Shown in pieces: positions 8,153-61,586 of a stretch of DNA of 64,000 nucleotides. A program made the position numbers and the translations under genes. The notes beneath the pieces were generated by a model that was not told where the DNA came from, did not search any database, and saw only the letters and a program-made list of their open reading frames with translations. The stretch is from Thermoleophilia bacterium (GTDB lineage Bacteria; Actinomycetota; Thermoleophilia; Gaiellales; Gaiellaceae): contig JAHDVS010000001.1 in the NCBI GenBank assembly GCA_023382435.1, positions 62,001-126,000 of the forward strand, in the 5' to 3' direction. How positions within the stretch are numbered: position 1 is the stretch's first letter; each line of letters begins with the position of its first letter.

Positions 8153-8323
8153 ATGGCCAACCACCTCACGCCTGAGGAGCTCTCCAAGGAGTTCGGCATC
8201 GACCGGCAGGAGGTGATCCAGCTCTGCATCGAGGAGTCGATCCCGATCTACCACGGCAAGATCGACAAGACGCTGTTCCAGGCGCACCTCGCGGCGACCC
8301 GCGCCGGCGAGGCCGCGGCGTGA
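8153..8323 (+). CDS. Small protein, 56 aa, helical DNA-binding-like
   Basis: Unrecognised small protein. ATG 8153 has a strong Shine-Dalgarno AAGGAG 6 nt upstream. The sequence LTPEELSKEFGIDRQEVIQL followed by CIEESIPIYHGKIDKTLF looks like a compact helix-turn-helix or excisionase (MerR-like) fold: a helix that chooses a module, then a short beta wing (IPIYHGKID). It could bind DNA but is too short for an effector domain. It differs from its neighbours in having a long, structured leader. It lies before the Ku gene, which is on the other strand. Confidence 0.6.
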   Translation: MANHLTPEELSKEFGIDRQEVIQLCIEESIPIYHGKIDKTLFQAHLAATRAGEAAA

Positions 8324-8333
8324 GCCGGGCAGC

Positions 8334-9155
8334 CTAGCGCGAGGTCCGCGACGAGCGGCGCGAGCGAGCGGGCTCTCCGGCCGGCTTCGCCACCGCGAGC
8401 GACTGGCGCAGCGCCTCCATCAGGTCGAGAACCGGGGCTTCTGGCTCGGGCTCGGGCCAGGCGATCTCCTGCCCGGCCGCCTTCGCCTCGAGCAGGGCCC
8501 GCAGCTGCGCCCGGTGCTCGTTGCGGTAGTCCGCCGGATCGAACGCCCCGGCGAGGCTCTGCACGAGCTGCCGGGCCATGTCGAGCTCCGCGTCGGTCAC
8601 CTCGACTCCTGCGACGGCCTCGCCGATCTCGGCGCGGGAGCGGATGTCCTCGGCGTAGAAGAGGGTCTCGAGCACGAGCGCGTCGTCGAGCGCCCGTACG
8701 AGGCAGAGGTGTTCCTTGCCCCAGAGCACGAACGTGCCGACGGCCGCCATCCCCGCCTCGCACAGGGCGCGGACGAGGAGGGCGTACGGGCGCCGCGCGA
8801 CCGGGTCGGCGGTTGGCGCGAGATAGTAGGCGCGGTCGAAGTAGAGCGGGTCGACGTCGTCGAGCGGGACGAAGCGCAGAAGCCGGACCGCCCGCGAGCG
8901 GGCGAGCTCGACCGCCTCGAGGTCGGACTCCTCGACCGGGACGAACGTGCCCTTCACGACCTCCCAGCCCTTGACGAGCTCGTCGGCCTCGACGTCGCGC
9001 TCGTGCAGGGGGCAGTAGCGCTTCTGCTTGATCGGGGTGCCACACTCGCGGTGGAGCGTGCGAAAGCTGACGTCCTGGCGTTGCTGGGCGACGGCGAGGC
9101 CGACCGGAATGGTCACGAGGCCGAAGCTGAGCGATCCGTTCCAGATTGTGCGCAT
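8334..9155 (-). CDS. ku: Ku protein, non-homologous end joining
   Basis: Bacterial Ku, 273 aa. It forms a ring-shaped homodimer that binds DNA ends and recruits ligase LigD. The start MRTIWNGSLSFGLVTIPVGL is the canonical Ku N-terminus; the core beta-barrel continues to about residue 230 (GTFVLWGKEHL, YAEDIRSRAEI). The Arg/Ser-rich tail (RSRRSSRTSR) resembles the basic C-terminal extension that contacts DNA or LigD in actinobacteria. No ligD is nearby; the LigA at 12.3-14.3 kb is the replicative NAD ligase, not the partner. Confidence 0.95.
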   Translation of the reverse strand: MRTIWNGSLSFGLVTIPVGLAVAQQRQDVSFRTLHRECGTPIKQKRYCPLHERDVEADELVKGWEVVKGTFVPVEESDLEAVELARSRAVRLLRFVPLDDVDPLYFDRAYYLAPTADPVARRPYALLVRALCEAGMAAVGTFVLWGKEHLCLVRALDDALVLETLFYAEDIRSRAEIGEAVAGVEVTDAELDMARQLVQSLAGAFDPADYRNEHRAQLRALLEAKAAGQEIAWPEPEPEAPVLDLMEALRQSLAVAKPAGEPARSRRSSRTSR

Positions 9156-11041: not shown

Positions 11042-14911
<3,870 letters not shown>

Positions 14912-54264: not shown

Positions 54265-55437
54265 GTGCCGTTGAGCCCGCTCGCCCTCGCAGCCCTCGCC
54301 GCCGAAACCGCCGCACTGGCCGGCTGGCTGGTCGTGCTGCTCGCGCGCGCACGCGCGTGGGACCTGCGGCCGATCGGCGACGACGCGCCCGCGCCCCCGG
54401 GCCCGCCGGCCTGGCCCCGCGTGCACGTGCTCGTACCCGCGCACGACGAGGCGGGCTCGCTACCGGGGACGTTGCCCGCGCTGCTCGCACAGGACTACCC
54501 GGGGCCGTGGCGGGTGATCCTGATCGATGACCGTTCCCGCGACGGGACCGCCGCGGTCGCGCGACGGCTCGCCGCTGGCGACGACCGCCTGACCGTGGTG
54601 GAGGGGCTGCCGCTCCCCGCCGGCTGGGTCGGCAAGGTGTGGGCGCTCGAGCAGGGGGCCGCCGAGAGCGCGCGCGACCCGGAGCCGCCCTCGTACCTGC
54701 TGCTGACCGACGCGGACATCCGCCACGCGCCGGGCTCGCTGGCCCGGCTGGTCGCCGAGAGCGAGGCGGATGGCCTGGCCCTGAACAGCCGCCTGGCGAG
54801 GCTGCGCTGCGAGTCCGGGCCGGAGCGGCTCCTGATCCCGCCGTTCGTCTTCTTCTTCAACCTCCTCTACCCGCAGCGGCGCGTCAACGACCCGGCGAGC
54901 CGGGTGGCTGCGGCAGCGGGGGGATGCGTGCTCGTACGGCGAGACACGCTCGAGCGCGCCGGCGGCCTCGCGGCGATCCGCGGCGAGCCGATCGACGACG
55001 TCAACCTCGCCGGGCACGTGAAAGGGCTCGGGGAGTCCATCCGCCTGTCCGTCAGCCGCTCCGAGGTGGTCAGCGTGCGCGAGTACGGCTCGGTCGCCGC
55101 GGTGTGGCGAATGGTGCGACGAACCGCGTTCGACGAGCTGCGCTACTCGTGGGCGCTGCTCGCCGGTACCCTCGTCGCCCTGGGCGTGCTGTTCGTCGCT
55201 CCCCCGGCCGGGATCGTCGGGGCGGCGATCGCCGCCTGGCTCGACGCTCCTGAGTGGATCGCCACGACGGTCGGCGCGATTGCCTTTGCCGCCTGGGCGT
55301 CGGCCACCGCGGCGTTCGTGCCGACGATCCGCTACTTCGCGCTCCACCAGGCGTGGGCGCTGACGTTGCCGCTCGCGGGAGTGCTCTACGGCGGGATGAC
55401 GCTCGACTCGGCGCTGCGCTCGAGGCCGCCGCCCTGA
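54265..55437 (+). CDS. Family 2 glycosyltransferase, HpnB-like
   Basis: 390 aa membrane glycosyltransferase. N-terminal helix (about 6-28), GT-A domain with HVLVPAHDEAGSLPGTLPAL (54-73), IDDRSRDGT (87-95) and the DxD motif TDAD (148-151), acceptor-side GEPIDDVNLAG, then RRTAFDELRYSWALLAGTLV and two or three C-terminal helices. This layout matches the hopanoid-associated glycosyltransferase HpnB. No other hopanoid genes are in the window, so the lipid acceptor is uncertain. Its last 52 nt overlap the convergent permease gene. Confidence 0.85.
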   Translation: MPLSPLALAALAAETAALAGWLVVLLARARAWDLRPIGDDAPAPPGPPAWPRVHVLVPAHDEAGSLPGTLPALLAQDYPGPWRVILIDDRSRDGTAAVARRLAAGDDRLTVVEGLPLPAGWVGKVWALEQGAAESARDPEPPSYLLLTDADIRHAPGSLARLVAESEADGLALNSRLARLRCESGPERLLIPPFVFFFNLLYPQRRVNDPASRVAAAAGGCVLVRRDTLERAGGLAAIRGEPIDDVNLAGHVKGLGESIRLSVSRSEVVSVREYGSVAAVWRMVRRTAFDELRYSWALLAGTLVALGVLFVAPPAGIVGAAIAAWLDAPEWIATTVGAIAFAAWASATAAFVPTIRYFALHQAWALTLPLAGVLYGGMTLDSALRSRPPP

Positions 55438-56606
55438 GCACGTAGCAGCCAGACGGTGACGACGAAGCAGACGCTGCAGAACGCGAGCAGGCCCACGAAG
55501 CCGAGCGTGTAGCTGCCGAAGAGGTCGTTGACGAGACCCATGAGCAGCGGCGGGAAGAAGCCGCCGAGGCCGCCGGCAGCGCCGATGATGCCGCTCGCGG
55601 CGCCGGTGTCGTCGGGGAACTCCGCCGGGACGAGCTTGAACACGGCGCCGCTGCCGAGCCCGAAGAAGGCTGCGAGCGACAGGCACGCGATCGTCACCGG
55701 GACGATCCGGGGAGTCGGCGAGATCGTCGCGAGCGCCGCCGCATCCACCGCGATCCCGGCGAAGGCGATCACGAGCATCGAGTAGGCGCCGAACCGATCG
55801 GAGAGCCAGCCGCCCAGGGGGCGGGTGATGGTGGCGACGGCCGTGAACCCGGCCGCCCTGAGACCGGCATCGACGAGCGAGAAGTCGAACCAGTCGACGA
55901 GCAGCTTCGGCGTGAAGATAGCCATGGCGATGAAGCCGCCGAAAGTGACGAAGTAGAAGAGCGAGAGCCGGTAGAGGGGCATGCCGGCGCGCAGGACCTG
56001 CCGGTAGCCGCTCGGCGCCGGCCGGCCCGGAGCGTCGCGCGCGAGCCCCCACCACGCGAGCGCGCCCGCGGCGAGCAGGGCGGCCACGCCGAAGCCGAGC
56101 ACCCGCCGGCCGCCGAGGTGATCGACGACGAACGGCGCGCTGAACGCCGCAATCGCCGTTCCCGCGTTGCCCATCCCGTAGATGCCGAGGGCGAAGCCCT
56201 GGCGCTCCCTCCCGAACCAGCCGGCGACGAACGGCACCCCGACGGCGAACGAGGAGCCCGCGATCCCGAGCAAAAGCGCGGTACCGACGAGCGCCCAGTA
56301 GCTGTCGACGACGCCGAGCAGGATGCAGGGGGGGACGGAGGCGAGCAGCAGCCCGGCGAACACGCGCCTGCCGCCGAACCGGTCGGTGAGCGCACCCATC
56401 GGTATTCGAAGCAACGAGCCGAGAATGATCGGGACGGCGATCAGGACCGACGTCTCGAAGCTCGAGAGGCTCCAGTCGTCTTCGAACTTGCGCGCGAGCG
56501 GCGCGACGAGGCCCATGGCCGTGAAGCAGAGCCCGAACGCGAGCGTCGCCAGCAGGAGGCCCCGCAGGGCCTCGCGACTGACGGTTGCCGAGGCCGGCTC
56601 CTCCAT
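55386..56606 (-). CDS. MFS nitrate/nitrite transporter, NarK-like
   Basis: 406 aa, 12 predicted helices. The family signatures are visible: RIPMGALTDRFGGRRVF after helix 2, IYGMGNAGTAIAAFSAP in helix 5 and ASGIIGAAGGLGGFFPPLLM near helix 11, both Gly-rich nitrate-signature-like segments. Probably imports nitrate or exports nitrite; no nitrate reductase is in the window. TACCGT lies 7 nt before ATG 56606. Confidence 0.8.
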   Translation of the reverse strand: MEEPASATVSREALRGLLLATLAFGLCFTAMGLVAPLARKFEDDWSLSSFETSVLIAVPIILGSLLRIPMGALTDRFGGRRVFAGLLLASVPPCILLGVVDSYWALVGTALLLGIAGSSFAVGVPFVAGWFGRERQGFALGIYGMGNAGTAIAAFSAPFVVDHLGGRRVLGFGVAALLAAGALAWWGLARDAPGRPAPSGYRQVLRAGMPLYRLSLFYFVTFGGFIAMAIFTPKLLVDWFDFSLVDAGLRAAGFTAVATITRPLGGWLSDRFGAYSMLVIAFAGIAVDAAALATISPTPRIVPVTIACLSLAAFFGLGSGAVFKLVPAEFPDDTGAASGIIGAAGGLGGFFPPLLMGLVNDLFGSYTLGFVGLLAFCSVCFVVTVWLLRAQGGGLERSAESSVIPP

Positions 56607-56613
56607 CGTCGGC

Positions 56614-56619
56614 ACGGTA
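56614..56619 (-). promoter_or_regulatory. -10 box, NarK-like gene (leaderless type)
   Basis: TACCGT on the minus strand, 7 nt before ATG 56606. Confidence 0.4.
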
Positions 56620-56674
56620 CACCCGGGGGGTGCGGCGGGCGGGGCTCGATCGCACAAACCCCTGCAAGCACGTC

Positions 56675-56712: not shown

Positions 56713-59004
56713 TCAGACGGGGTCGAAGCGCCGCAGCGCGAAGCCGGCGAGCACCAGGCAGACGAGCGTGATCGCGCCGAGCGCTGCCAGGTTGCGCAGC
56801 CACGCGCCCGGCTCGTGGTTCCAGAGCCGCTCGCCGCGGTTCTCCTCTCCCAGAACCTCGACGAGCTTCTCCGGCTTGCTCAGGTCGATCGTCGGGAGCT
56901 TGCGGCCGATCGCGTCGATCGCCTGGAGGCGATTCAGCTCGGAGGTCGAGGCGCCCGCACCGAACCCCCAGGTGAGGCTGGAGGCGTACGAGAGCTCACG
57001 TAGGACAGGCTTCTCCTCGGCGGAGGGAAAGACACCGCCGGAGCCGAGCAAGAGCTGGATCGTGAGCAGCGCGGGCAGAACGGCGACGGCCACGTTGACC
57101 GACGAGGAAAGCGAGGAGACGAGCAGGCCGAGCGCGACCGCGGCGATCCCAGTGGCGGCGCCGGCCACGATCAGCTCCCCGAGCGGCCAGCCGAGCAGGA
57201 CCGCGTCGCGCGGCCCGTTCTGGGCGGCAACGGCAATCGGGACCGCGACAGCGGCCTGGAGCGTCACGATCGCACTGAGGACGAGCAGCTTCGAGAGCAC
57301 GTAGGCGGGGATCGAGAGCCCGATCGCCCGTTCGCGGCGAAACAGCGGCTGCTCCTTGACGATCTCGCGGATCGCGTTCGTCAGGCCGAGCAGCGTGAGG
57401 CTCAGCATCAGGACGAAGAGGACGAGCGATGCCTGCGAGACGAGCCGGATCTCGGGCAGCGGGGGTGGCGACAGCTCGCTGCCCGGCAGGCGCCAGAGCG
57501 CGATCAGCCCGAGCACGGGCGCCGAGAGCCCGAGCATGACCAGGTTGCCGCGGTCGCTCGCGAGCACCCGCCCGTAACGCCGCGTCAGCATCCAGAGCTG
57601 CCGCCACCAGCTCAGCCGCCCCGGTGGCGATCCCACGGCGGCCGGCCGCCGCGACCCTGCCGTGTAGCCGGTGAGCGGCTCGTCCAGGTAGCGGCGGCCG
57701 AGTTCGTGTGCGGAGAAGCGCTCCCGCCACTCGCGGGGATCGCCGCCCGAGAGGCTCTGGAACACCCCCTGGTAGTCGGCGCGGTCGAAGTAGGCGAGCG
57801 CGAGCTGCGGCGGCCCGAAGAACGCGGTGCGCCCGCCCGGCGCGAGGAAGAGCACGCGGTCGCAGAGGGCGAGGCTCTCGACGCTGTGGGTGACGACGAC
57901 GACGGTCCGCCCCGCGTCGGCGAGCCGGCGCAGGAGCTGCATCAGGCTGCGCTCGAGCCCGGGATCGAGCCCCGAGGTGGGCTCGTCGAGGAAGAGCAGG
58001 GCCGGTCTCGTGAGTAGCTCGAGCGCGACGCTGACCCGCTTTCGCTGCCCGCCGGAGAGCCTGCGGACCGGCAGGTCGCGCCGCGCGGCCAGGTCGAGCT
58101 CCTCGAGGACTTCCTCGACCCGTGCCCGCCGCTCGGCAGCCGTGACGTCCGGCGGGAACCGCAGCTCGGCCGCGTACTCGAGCGACTGGGCGACGGTCAG
58201 GCCCGCGTGAACGACGTCGTCCTGGGGCACGTAGCCGATCCGCTGGCGGAGCGCGTCGTAGTCGGCGTAGAGGTCGTGGCCGCCGAAATAGACGCTTCCC
58301 CGGGCCGCTTGCTTCAGTCCGGACAGTGCCCCGAGCAGCGTCGACTTGCCCGCGCCCGACGGGCCGACGACGGCGAGGAGCGTGCCCTCGTCGACGGCGA
58401 AGCCGACGTCGTCGACGAGCAGCGAGCCCGCGCGCGTCTCGACCGAGATCCCCGCCGCGGCGAGCGCGACCGCGCCTTCCTCCGCCTGGAGCTCGAGCCG
58501 GGAGCCGGTCAGGCGAAGCTGCGAGCGGCCGATCCCGACGAGGTCGCCCTCGGTCAGGACCACCTCGTCGATCTGCCTCCCGTTCACGAACGTGCCGTTG
58601 AAGCTGCCGAGGTCGACGAGCGTGTGGCGACCATCCGGGAGCCGGCGCAGCTCGGCGTGGTGACGCGAGACGAGCAGGTCGTCGAGCACGAAGTCGTTGG
58701 CCGAGCCACGCCCGATCCGGACGGTGGCCCCTTCGGCGCCGGCCGGCAGCCCGGACGCGCCCGGGGCGGGAGTCCCGTCGAGCGGTGTCAGCCGAAGCCA
58801 CGGCCCCAGCTCGGGATCGCCGAGCCGCACGGTCGTCTCCTCGACGATGGCGAAGCGGTCGAGCCGCTGCCCGTTGACGTAGACGCCGTAGCTCGAGCCG
58901 GCGTCCTCGGCGACCCAGCTGCCGCCCACCACGAGCAGACGTAGATGCTGGCGCGAGACGCGCGGGTCGTCGATGCGAAGCCCCGCGGTCGAGTGCCGGC
59001 CCAC
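56713..59004 (-). CDS. ABC exporter with two FHA domains (Rv1747-like)
   Basis: 763 aa from GTG 59004. FHA1 (about 1-70; GRHSTAGLRIDDPRVSRQH), FHA2 (about 92-165; IGRGSANDFVLDDLLVSRHH and GSFNGTFVNG), ABC ATPase with Walker A GPSGAGKST (214-222), signature LSGGQRKR, Walker B LLFLDEPTSGLDP and H-loop VVVTHS, then an ABC-2 membrane domain of about six helices. The order equals mycobacterial Rv1747, which is controlled by kinase PknF; here a kinase gene is divergent. FHA1 seems to begin earlier: the frame is open to 59130 and LDIVSAEQRLTAEAGKAVIV looks like the missing strand, but only CTG 59076 could start it. Confidence 0.92.
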   Translation of the reverse strand: MGRHSTAGLRIDDPRVSRQHLRLLVVGGSWVAEDAGSSYGVYVNGQRLDRFAIVEETTVRLGDPELGPWLRLTPLDGTPAPGASGLPAGAEGATVRIGRGSANDFVLDDLLVSRHHAELRRLPDGRHTLVDLGSFNGTFVNGRQIDEVVLTEGDLVGIGRSQLRLTGSRLELQAEEGAVALAAAGISVETRAGSLLVDDVGFAVDEGTLLAVVGPSGAGKSTLLGALSGLKQAARGSVYFGGHDLYADYDALRQRIGYVPQDDVVHAGLTVAQSLEYAAELRFPPDVTAAERRARVEEVLEELDLAARRDLPVRRLSGGQRKRVSVALELLTRPALLFLDEPTSGLDPGLERSLMQLLRRLADAGRTVVVVTHSVESLALCDRVLFLAPGGRTAFFGPPQLALAYFDRADYQGVFQSLSGGDPREWRERFSAHELGRRYLDEPLTGYTAGSRRPAAVGSPPGRLSWWRQLWMLTRRYGRVLASDRGNLVMLGLSAPVLGLIALWRLPGSELSPPPLPEIRLVSQASLVLFVLMLSLTLLGLTNAIREIVKEQPLFRRERAIGLSIPAYVLSKLLVLSAIVTLQAAVAVPIAVAAQNGPRDAVLLGWPLGELIVAGAATGIAAVALGLLVSSLSSSVNVAVAVLPALLTIQLLLGSGGVFPSAEEKPVLRELSYASSLTWGFGAGASTSELNRLQAIDAIGRKLPTIDLSKPEKLVEVLGEENRGERLWNHEPGAWLRNLAALGAITLVCLVLAGFALRRFDPV

Positions 59005-59159
59005 GATGACAGCCTTGCCCGCCTCGGCCGTGAGGCGCTGCTCCGCGCTGACGATGTCGAGACGTGGGCCTGCCAGTTCGGGTGCCCTGCCCTTTGCTTT
59101 CGCCGAGGGGGGAAGTGTAGGGTGAGCCTACGCGATCCTCTCCGGCGGGGCCAGACGGC

Positions 59160-61586
59160 GTGACTCAGTACATAGGGCGATATCGGGCCGAGAAAGTCGT
59201 CGGTTCCGGAGCGTTTGCGACGGTCTGGCTCGCACTGGACGAGACGCTGGGAGCCGAGGTCGCGATCAAGGTGCTGGCGGAGAACTGGGCGCACGACGAG
59301 GAGGTGCGCCGCCGCTTCATGGAGGAGGCGCGCATCCTCTGGCGCGCCGACTCCGATCACATCGTCAGGATCCACAACGTCGACGAGTTGCCGGACGGGC
59401 GGCCGTATTTCGTCATGGACTACGCCGATCGGGGCACGCTCGAGCGGCGGATGGCCGGTCGGGCCGGGGCGAGCCGCCCCTGGGCGGTCGAGGAGGTCGT
59501 GGAGCTGTCGCTCGCGATCGCCGACGGGCTGAAGGTCGCGCACGCGCTCGGGATCGTCCACCGCGACCTGAAGCCGGCGAACGTGATGTTCCAGTCCGTG
59601 CCCGCCCACCACGGCCAGCCGCGCGACGAGCGGCTCGTGCTCACGGACTTCGGGATCGCCAAATCGCTCGCGCGCTCGCGCGGGACGACGATCGCGACGG
59701 GCACCCCGCACTACATGGCCCCGGAGCAGACGGAGGGCAAGGCCGACGAGCGCAGCGACGTCTACGCGGCAGCGGTGATCGCCTACGAGTTGCTCGCCGG
59801 CCGTGTTCCCTACCCGTACGACTCGCTGCGGGAGCTGCTCGTGGCACACCAGGCGAGCCCTCCCCAGCCGATCGCGGCACTGCGGCCGGACGTGCCTGCC
59901 GGGCTCGCCGCGGCGATCCACCGGGGCCTGTCGATGCGGCCCGACGACCGCTGGCCCGACGCCACGGCCTGGGCCGCGGCGATCGCCGGCGTCGGCGCCG
60001 CTCCACCTCCGCCCGCGGCCGCCGCGTTCCCGTCGGACTTCCAGGCGACCGTCGGCCCGAGCGCGCTCGCGGCCGCCGCCGCCGCGAGCGGGACCGAGCC
60101 GCCGCCTCCACCTCCGCCTCCTCCACCGGCGGCGCCACCGCCGGCCGAGCCCGCCTACGCAGCCGCTGCGCCCCCGCCACCGCCGCCACCCCCCGCCGGG
60201 CCTCCGCCTCCCGCTCCGCCGGGCGACGACGGGCGCAGGCGCCGGCGCTGGTGGCGGATCGCGGTTCCCGCGCTGGCCGCGCTCGCGGTGGCCGGAGCGG
60301 TCGTCGGCGTCCTCGTCGCGGTCGGCGGCGGGGAGGGCGACGCGCCGGACGTGACCGAGATCCTGCTCGAGCCGGTCGCCTCGGTCGGCCAGGATCCGTT
60401 CGCACCGTCGATCGTCCCGAAGCCCGGCGACGACGTCGAGATCCCCGCGGACGCCGAGCTCCCCGAGGGGATCGCCGAGCAGATCGCCGCGGGAGGAGAG
60501 GCGGCCGGCGAGATCGTCGACGAGATCCTCACCGGCCTCAACCCCGAGCCCGGCAGAAGCCCGGGTATCGATCTGCCCGAGCTCAACATCCCCCAGGCCT
60601 CGCCCGGGCGGGTCACCAGCGTCTCCGGCGCCGCACCCGGCCTCTACGGCGGCACGCAGGTCGTCAATGTCTGCGACATCGAGCAGCTGATCCGCTTCCT
60701 GGCCGAGAACGCCGACAAGGCCCGCGCCTGGGCGAAGGTGCAGGGCATCGATCCGAGCGAGATCCCCGCCTACCTGCGCGGCCTCACCGACGTGATCCTG
60801 CAGGCGGACACGCGGGTCACGAACCACGGCTTCACGAACGGCGTCGCCAACGCGATCGACTCGGTCCTCCAGGCCGGCACCGCCGTCCTCGTCGACGCGT
60901 TCGGCGTGCCCCGCGTCCGCTGCTACTGCGGCAATCCGCTGCTGCCGCCGCGGGTCACCGCCGGCACGCCCACGATCAAGGGGACGCCGTGGCCCGGCTT
61001 CACGATCGACGCGACCGTCGTGATCACCCAGACCGTCGTCGTGCCCGAGTTCTCGATCGACGACATCCTCACCGACGACTTCATCTTCCGCCCGCCGGGA
61101 ACGCCCGCCGCGGAGGCGACGCTCGAGCCAACCGTGCTCGAGGTGCCGCCGGCCGCGACCGAAACCGAGCCGCCCACGACCACCGAGGCCCCGCCCCCGA
61201 CCACCGAGGCCCCGCCGACGACGGAGGCGCCCCCGACCACGGAGGCACCGCCCGCGACGGTGACCGAGGAGCCGGAGGTGCTGTCGTCCCGGGACTACTG
61301 CACGGCGCTCAAGGAATACCTCAAGATCGACAGGCAGTACGAAGGCGGCTCGGACTCGCCCGAGTACCGGGCGTTCGTGCGCGGCGCGCTGCGCGATCTC
61401 GCGAACATCGCGCCGCCGCCGGTCAAGGAATCGTGGAGCTGGTGGCGTGACATCTACGAGCGCGACCCCGACGGCTACTGGGAGGGCAACGCCTGGACGG
61501 ACGCGGATTCGGCCGCGGCAGAGCGCCACCTCACGACCATCACCACGCACGCGAAGAACGCGTGCGGCATCGAGGACTGGGGGTAG
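59160..61586 (+). CDS. Receptor-type Ser/Thr protein kinase with DUF6777-like ectodomain
   Basis: 808 aa, starting GTG 59160. Kinase domain 1-275: Gly-loop GSGAFA, Lys37, HRDLKPAN (134-141), DFG (163-165), APEQ (187-190). An Ala/Pro linker with long Pro runs follows, then RRRRRWW and one membrane helix (about 367-390), so the rest is outside. The ectodomain contains GLYGGTQVVNVCDIEQLIRF, QADTRVTNHGFTNGVANAID and RVRCYCGNPLLPP, which resemble the uncharacterised DUF6777. A PTTTEAPP-type spacer and a Cys-containing C-terminal domain end the protein. Likely phosphorylates the divergent FHA transporter; its ligand is unknown. Confidence 0.9.
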   Translation: MTQYIGRYRAEKVVGSGAFATVWLALDETLGAEVAIKVLAENWAHDEEVRRRFMEEARILWRADSDHIVRIHNVDELPDGRPYFVMDYADRGTLERRMAGRAGASRPWAVEEVVELSLAIADGLKVAHALGIVHRDLKPANVMFQSVPAHHGQPRDERLVLTDFGIAKSLARSRGTTIATGTPHYMAPEQTEGKADERSDVYAAAVIAYELLAGRVPYPYDSLRELLVAHQASPPQPIAALRPDVPAGLAAAIHRGLSMRPDDRWPDATAWAAAIAGVGAAPPPPAAAAFPSDFQATVGPSALAAAAAASGTEPPPPPPPPPPAAPPPAEPAYAAAAPPPPPPPPAGPPPPAPPGDDGRRRRRWWRIAVPALAALAVAGAVVGVLVAVGGGEGDAPDVTEILLEPVASVGQDPFAPSIVPKPGDDVEIPADAELPEGIAEQIAAGGEAAGEIVDEILTGLNPEPGRSPGIDLPELNIPQASPGRVTSVSGAAPGLYGGTQVVNVCDIEQLIRFLAENADKARAWAKVQGIDPSEIPAYLRGLTDVILQADTRVTNHGFTNGVANAIDSVLQAGTAVLVDAFGVPRVRCYCGNPLLPPRVTAGTPTIKGTPWPGFTIDATVVITQTVVVPEFSIDDILTDDFIFRPPGTPAAEATLEPTVLEVPPAATETEPPTTTEAPPPTTEAPPTTEAPPTTEAPPATVTEEPEVLSSRDYCTALKEYLKIDRQYEGGSDSPEYRAFVRGALRDLANIAPPPVKESWSWWRDIYERDPDGYWEGNAWTDADSAAAERHLTTITTHAKNACGIEDWG

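Follow-up and report, generated by a model that had tools for sequence, protein, structure and literature searches.

A kinase-DUF6777 fusion divergent from a tandem-FHA ABC exporter in a Thermoleophilia bacterium: a probable phospho-regulated export module

Results

Organization of the locus

The window, i.e. the whole stretch of 64,000 nucleotides analysed here, harbours an ABC exporter gene and a Ser/Thr kinase gene with the following features:

56713..59076, minus strand: ABC exporter, FHA1-FHA2-ATPase-ABC2 permease (Pfam, in-frame codon walk and motifs; putative start at CTG 59076)
58775..59061 (approximate bounds), minus strand: FHA1, with G, R, S and H kept and the peptide-contacting Asn changed to Tyr (SSYGVY); best PDB match 6ccd
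58528..58722, minus strand: FHA2, with five of five phosphothreonine-site residues kept (Pfam, alignment); best PDB match 6cah
57973..58413, minus strand: ATPase domain (ABC_tran, Pfam)
56956..57600, minus strand: ABC-2 permease domain (ABC2_membrane, Pfam)
59077..59159, no strand: intergenic region between the divergent exporter and kinase genes (promoter scan)
59160..61586, plus strand: Ser/Thr kinase, Pro-rich linker, transmembrane helix, DUF6777 and C-terminal tip in one protein of 808 aa, GTG start
59160..59984, plus strand: Hanks-type kinase domain with complete catalytic motifs (Pfam, motifs, PDB relatives)
60048..60050, plus strand: Thr297 in the juxtamembrane linker, candidate phospho-docking site (fused-kinase alignment)
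60258..60323, plus strand: single transmembrane helix, residues ~367-388, following RRRRRWWR (positive inside; read from sequence)
60618..61097, plus strand: DUF6777 ectodomain with conserved C505, C588 and C590 (Pfam, alignment, AlphaFold2 model)
61296..61583, plus strand: C-terminal tip after a Thr/Pro-rich spacer, with two Cys and no Pfam family (domain search)

The two genes diverge from a gap of around 83 bp, in which the promoter scan found no sigma-70-like consensus. The listed ORF of the exporter begins at GTG 59004, i.e. inside FHA1, and walking the codons from there up to the in-frame TAG at 59130 yielded no in-frame ATG, GTG or TTG. Our best guess for the start is CTG 59076, which has AGGG upstream and adds around 24 residues to the default ORF call. 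Beside the exporter, the window also carries glycosyltransferase family 2 and MFS transporter genes (54265-55437 and 55386-56657) that overlap tail-to-tail; neither was seen beside the exporter of locus L075, which belongs to the same taxonomic family.

The exporter and its FHA sites

The exporter matched, in order, FHA twice (4.6e-34, over two stretches), ABC_tran (7e-32) and ABC2_membrane (1.7e-15; 57.6 bits with a cut-off of 26.9). Walker A and B, LSGGQ and the H-loop are complete, and the ATPase precedes an ABC2 permease half in the same chain, the layout of ABCG-type transporters, a subfamily label that we borrow from the Rv1747 literature (PMC3908365). The earlier note had likened this domain order to that of mycobacterial Rv1747, and the likeness holds, as the closest PDB structures to FHA2 and FHA1 are the FHA-2 and FHA-1 domains of Rv1747, respectively.

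Judged by the residues of the phosphothreonine site (Gly, Arg, Ser, His and Asn; PMC5549992), FHA2 is intact, whereas in FHA1 the Asn that touches the peptide backbone has been replaced. The supposition that the FHA domains keep these binding residues thus survives for one domain and only in part for the other. Since L227, a related exporter of the same order, shows the identical Asn to Tyr change, a sequencing error in the window is less likely, and the change suggests a real specialised FHA1 subtype.

The two FHA domains lie close together, with a GR-to-GR spacing of 96 aa versus 194-228 aa in the Rv1747 orthologs of L221, L240 and L241. Almost no residues separate FHA2 from the ATPase, which leaves hardly any sequence for the phosphosites that the earlier note proposed to look for there.

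The fused kinase

Residues 8-222 of the second protein match Pkinase (4e-38), and the motifs GSGAFATV, VAIK, HRDLKPAN, DFG and APE are all present, which makes it a Hanks-type Ser/Thr kinase; StkP, PknE, PknA and PknB are its nearest solved relatives. In the juxtamembrane linker, Thr297 (A/R-T-[MVL]) is invariant in eight of eight aligned fused kinases while the surrounding linker drifts, and its motif does not fit pTxx[V/I/L/D]. Because the stretch between FHA2 and the ATPase is too short for phosphosites, Thr297 appears to be the better phosphosite candidate.

The outermost tips differ among the DUF6777 kinases: that of L081 is discoidin-like (F5_F8_type_C, E 5e-6, just under the cut-off), as by similarity is that of L075, those of L080-L085 contain an unassigned domain, and the window has its small Cys-containing tip. 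Related exporters that lack DUF6777 are often found near another kinase (L222, L225-L229, L231-L234, L238 and L239), and these kinases carry other ectodomains; the genome of L080 holds a second such pair (L222). Kinase ectodomains thus seem interchangeable, and so, one level further out, do the tips of the DUF6777 kinases.

The DUF6777 domain

What the earlier note called a DUF6777-like sensor domain is a genuine DUF6777 (PF20568) located outside the membrane: residues 487-646 of the kinase protein match positions 2-162 of the 163-position model (E 1.7e-59, 200.7 bits; curated cut-off 27 bits), and a second search gave 205.2 bits. At 201-205 bits over its full length, the domain shows no difference from the family. 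DUF6777 comprises 160-170 residues, i.e. three helices followed by a beta-rich part, with the signature DTRVTNHG...GVPRVRCxCGNPL.

The cysteines described earlier as paired are indeed conserved, but they number three rather than two: C25 in 72 of 79 alignment rows, C108 in 79 of 79 and C110 in 78 of 79. All seven rows without C25 carry a Cys at position 45 instead, and C25 and C108 are both present in the sole row without C110; this pattern points to a pairing of the helical Cys with C108, with C110 possibly free.

The AlphaFold2 model of the domain is confident (pLDDT 93.4). Solved relatives were not found by sequence (best E 0.27), and Foldseek against the PDB returned no convincing match for the model (best E 0.19, prob 0.13); VIA-align reached a Z of 2.2 at best, and a viral structure library gave no match. 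The absence of a structural match does not make the fold new. In the open-licence literature we found no paper on DUF6777, a family without a described function.

A scan of named genomes places DUF6777 in hundreds of actinobacterial loci, and in the genome search FHA-ABC was missing from the vicinity of 19 of 25 DUF6777 loci retrieved with 7 kb flanks. DUF6777 is therefore not specific to export. In Mycolicibacterium austroafricanum, a DUF6777 protein carries an N-terminal zinc ribbon (L121:9611-11239), and the Rv1747-like exporter of this species (L221) sits away from it, without an adjacent kinase gene.

Distribution and conserved neighbourhood

Among the relatives of the window DUF6777 is rare, occurring in 17 of 296 genomes of the phylum and 16 of 399 of the class. 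Within the taxonomic family, the exporter occurs in two of 103 genomes, and only these same two carry DUF6777; the probability of such a coincidence between two rare genes is 1 in 5253, assuming, as the unchanged genome identifiers indicate, that the DUF6777 searches covered all 103. Across the class sample the genome-wide overlap is weak, as three genomes share both, of 16 with DUF6777 and 27 with the exporter. The link between DUF6777 and the exporter is thus one of loci in particular lineages, not genome-wide.

At the locus level, the adjacency that the earlier note had made one of its points of refutation is conserved. Each of the seven further fused-kinase genomes that have sufficient flanking sequence carries an FHA-FHA-ABC gene next to the kinase-DUF6777 fusion, its centre 1.6-2.9 kb from that of DUF6777; the two genes run in the same direction in four of these genomes and diverge in the other three, L075, L081 and L086. 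L075 has the same divergent pair as the window, with kinase and ATPase at 73-77 % identity. L081 and L086 are metagenome-assembled genomes (MAGs), and the fused gene of L086 is broken by an apparent frameshift. The Acidimicrobiia MAGs L080, L082, L083 and L085 have the fusion gene, the exporter gene and a small gene for an SH3-like protein all oriented alike. Immediately behind the SH3-like gene, such operons have a fourth conserved gene, whose secreted product has a hydrophobic stretch at its C-terminus (L080:6290-6952, L083 ~8180-8968, L085 ~13422-14192).

A split version was found at 38 Streptomyces/Kitasatospora loci, a few genomes of which may be counted twice. Here the same parts are encoded by separate neighbouring genes together with the SH3-like protein, in the order exporter, SH3-like gene, kinase and DUF6777 membrane protein, the last usually past one opposite-strand gene; in S. 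humicola (L113), no gene lies between the kinase and DUF6777 genes. S. noursei (L105), S. anulatus (L101) and S. viridochromogenes (L156) are among the species with the split cluster. The intervening gene of L043 (8057-9502, Streptomyces) encodes a multi-helix membrane protein that could be another component, and the kinase-DUF6777 spacing of L043 recurs in most other Streptomyces loci. A two-gene version of the association is seen at L127:8636-11029, where the SH3-like gene adjoins the DUF6777 membrane protein and neither FHA exporter nor kinase was detected nearby. The genome of the window yielded no SH3-like partner, a weak negative.

The SH3-like protein and its docking-type motifs

The SH3-like protein scores slightly below the cut-off for bacterial SH3, and Foldseek relates its predicted fold to SH3 with prob 1.00 and a best E of 2.6e-3, from a model whose pLDDT is only 75. 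The tails of the Streptomyces SH3 proteins contain 89 Thr-x-[VIL]-[VIL] motifs versus 3.2 +/- 1.7 expected from shuffles, which ignore relatedness, and most of the motifs were counted in a single bacterial family. The control motifs are scarce, with one hit for the Ser version, none for the reversed motif and five for the Ala version. The repeats cluster in certain species, and 26 of 39 tails have at least one. As FHA-1 of Rv1747 recognises a pTxxV site of its partner Rv2623 (PMC5549992), these repeats are the right kind of motif for an FHA ligand. The tails of the split kinases of Streptomyces carry T-x-V-D in 25 of 38 cases.

Phylogenetic relationship of the fused and split loci

The exporter tree places the fused-type exporters, together with L224, in one starred set and the split-type exporters of Streptomyces in another; the latter set falls in the same half of the tree as the mycobacterial Rv1747 ortholog. 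A single clade of all DUF6777-linked exporters was rejected (AU p 3.5e-5), as was a single clade of all DUF6777-linked kinases (AU p 1.9e-4); the trees were quick ones and their branch details are provisional. Since fused and split systems have neither sister exporters nor sister kinases, differing partners have been gathered around one set of three functions: DUF6777 joined a kinase and such an exporter on two or more occasions, or the partners were swapped while the association stayed. A further kinase-DUF6777 fusion is present at L052:1528-3879, its kinase only ~36 % identical to that of the window; a tree test with p 0.34 speaks neither for nor against an independent fusion.

Discussion

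Comparison with known systems

The nearest described system is PknF/Rv1747 of M. tuberculosis, a two-gene operon in which PknF positively modulates the transporter (PMC3908365) and in which loss of the exporter lowers the levels of PIM glycolipids (PMC5549992). As in that system, a kinase gene adjoins an FHA-FHA-ATPase-ABC2 half-transporter, and no solved structures are closer to our FHA domains than those of Rv1747. The likeness drawn in the earlier note stands as far as the kinase neighbour is concerned; the two genes do not form an operon, and orthology of the exporter with Rv1747 is not supported: the genes are divergent here, and the Rv1747-like exporters L221, L240 and L241 fall into another starred set of the quick tree. 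There are further differences, i.e. the Asn missing from FHA1, DUF6777 as the ectodomain of the kinase, and the distance between the FHA domains. Rv1747 has a long disordered linker between its FHA domains, and its FHA region undergoes phosphorylation-dependent condensation (PMC9312465); because the window exporter has almost no such linker, a condensate mechanism is unlikely here. FHA2 also matches regulators of the GarA/OdhI type (E 1e-14 to 1e-11), which likewise read out kinase-made phosphothreonine by an FHA domain but act as soluble regulators of metabolism rather than as transporters. Open-licence papers yielded nothing on FHA-ABC/kinase clusters beyond the mycobacteria.

A probable phospho-regulated export module

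We consider it probable, at roughly 60 %, that the fused receptor kinase and the FHA exporter form a phospho-regulated export module. The evidence lies in the sequence: the parts themselves, the fused topology, the catalytic residues, the adjacency, the pairing in two lineages and the docking-type motifs of Streptomyces. Whichever way it arose, the repeated pairing argues more strongly for a functional link than neighbouring genes in a single lineage would. Speaking against the module are the many DUF6777 loci that lack an FHA exporter, the lost Asn of FHA1, the missing SH3-like partner in the genome of the window, the poor fit of the Thr297 motif to pTxx[V/I/L/D], and the narrow sampling and uncorrected relatedness behind the motif counts.

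The likeliest mechanism is that the kinase senses the envelope and gates export by way of FHA binding. DUF6777 and the variable tip lie outside the membrane, where occupancy or clustering would alter the kinase activity inside. The kinase would then phosphorylate its own threonines, with Thr297 as a candidate, and perhaps threonines of the exporter too. The exporter FHA domains, mainly the intact FHA2, would bind the phosphothreonine and so bring kinase and exporter together, and this docking would turn on or gate a dimer of the ABCG-type half-transporter, which would move an envelope component outward, probably a lipid or glycolipid. We infer this chain, including control running from kinase to exporter, by analogy with PknF-Rv1747.

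In Streptomyces, a phylum-level relative of the window organism, the same logic may operate through separate proteins, with docking by the PT[RQ]VD of the kinase tail and the PT[RQ]VV repeats of the SH3 protein, and with DUF6777 on its own membrane anchor. DUF6777 probably helps to switch the exporter via protein phosphorylation. The module may sense an envelope signal directly, as supposed in the earlier note; since DUF6777 sits on a membrane protein of its own in Streptomyces, the domain does not have to feed the kinase directly.

More tentatively, and rather less probable than otherwise, these loci may belong to an undescribed actinobacterial signalling-export system made of a DUF6777 membrane sensor, a Ser/Thr kinase, an SH3-like adaptor and a tandem-FHA exporter. 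Its two FHA domains would read two phosphothreonine codes, i.e. pTxxD in the kinase tail and pTxxV in the adaptor repeats, and thereby integrate inputs; the window would then hold a streamlined form in which sensor and kinase are fused and the adaptor is lost.

The main rival to a sensing role is that DUF6777 serves as an outer accessory of the exporter, receiving, holding or placing the exported compound, or anchoring it to the wall via the variable tip, with the kinase merely happening to carry it when fused. Such a role would suit the separate, membrane-anchored DUF6777 protein near the exporter in Streptomyces, the discoidin-like domain among the tips, a fold that often binds carbohydrates, and the wide occurrence of DUF6777 on its own. 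Fusion to a kinase across one bilayer is, however, the classic layout of a receptor kinase, and DUF6777 often occurs without any FHA-ABC nearby, where one would hardly look for an exporter accessory; we regard an accessory role as unlikely.

An ordinary PknF/Rv1747 module working as in Mycobacterium, its ectodomain a replaceable structural element, is less probable still. The shared domain order, the Rv1747 structures as nearest FHA relatives and the unrelated ectodomains on kinases adjoining related exporters speak for it, but the exporter is not orthologous, lacks the long phospho-linker and is encoded divergently, and a neutral ectodomain would leave the pairing with DUF6777 in two separate lineages unexplained. 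That the pair merely hitch-hikes, as a mobile or linked piece of DNA whose genes do not interact functionally, we hold to be very improbable: the patchy spread (two of 103 genomes in the family) fits horizontal transfer, yet the same partners recur in varied order and orientation, fused and unfused, with kinases and exporters that are not sisters.

Returning to the phospho-regulated module, it bears on which signals bacterial Ser/Thr receptor kinases respond to and on how ABC exporters are switched by phosphorylation, both studied mainly in one pathogen through PknF/Rv1747. The threonine-specific repeats (the Ser version counted 1 versus 89) would offer a directly testable phosphothreonine docking code, and DUF6777, with its confident model and no convincing PDB match, is a structure to solve. 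For the family itself, being tied twice to an FHA exporter, also in culturable Streptomyces, provides a first functional context.
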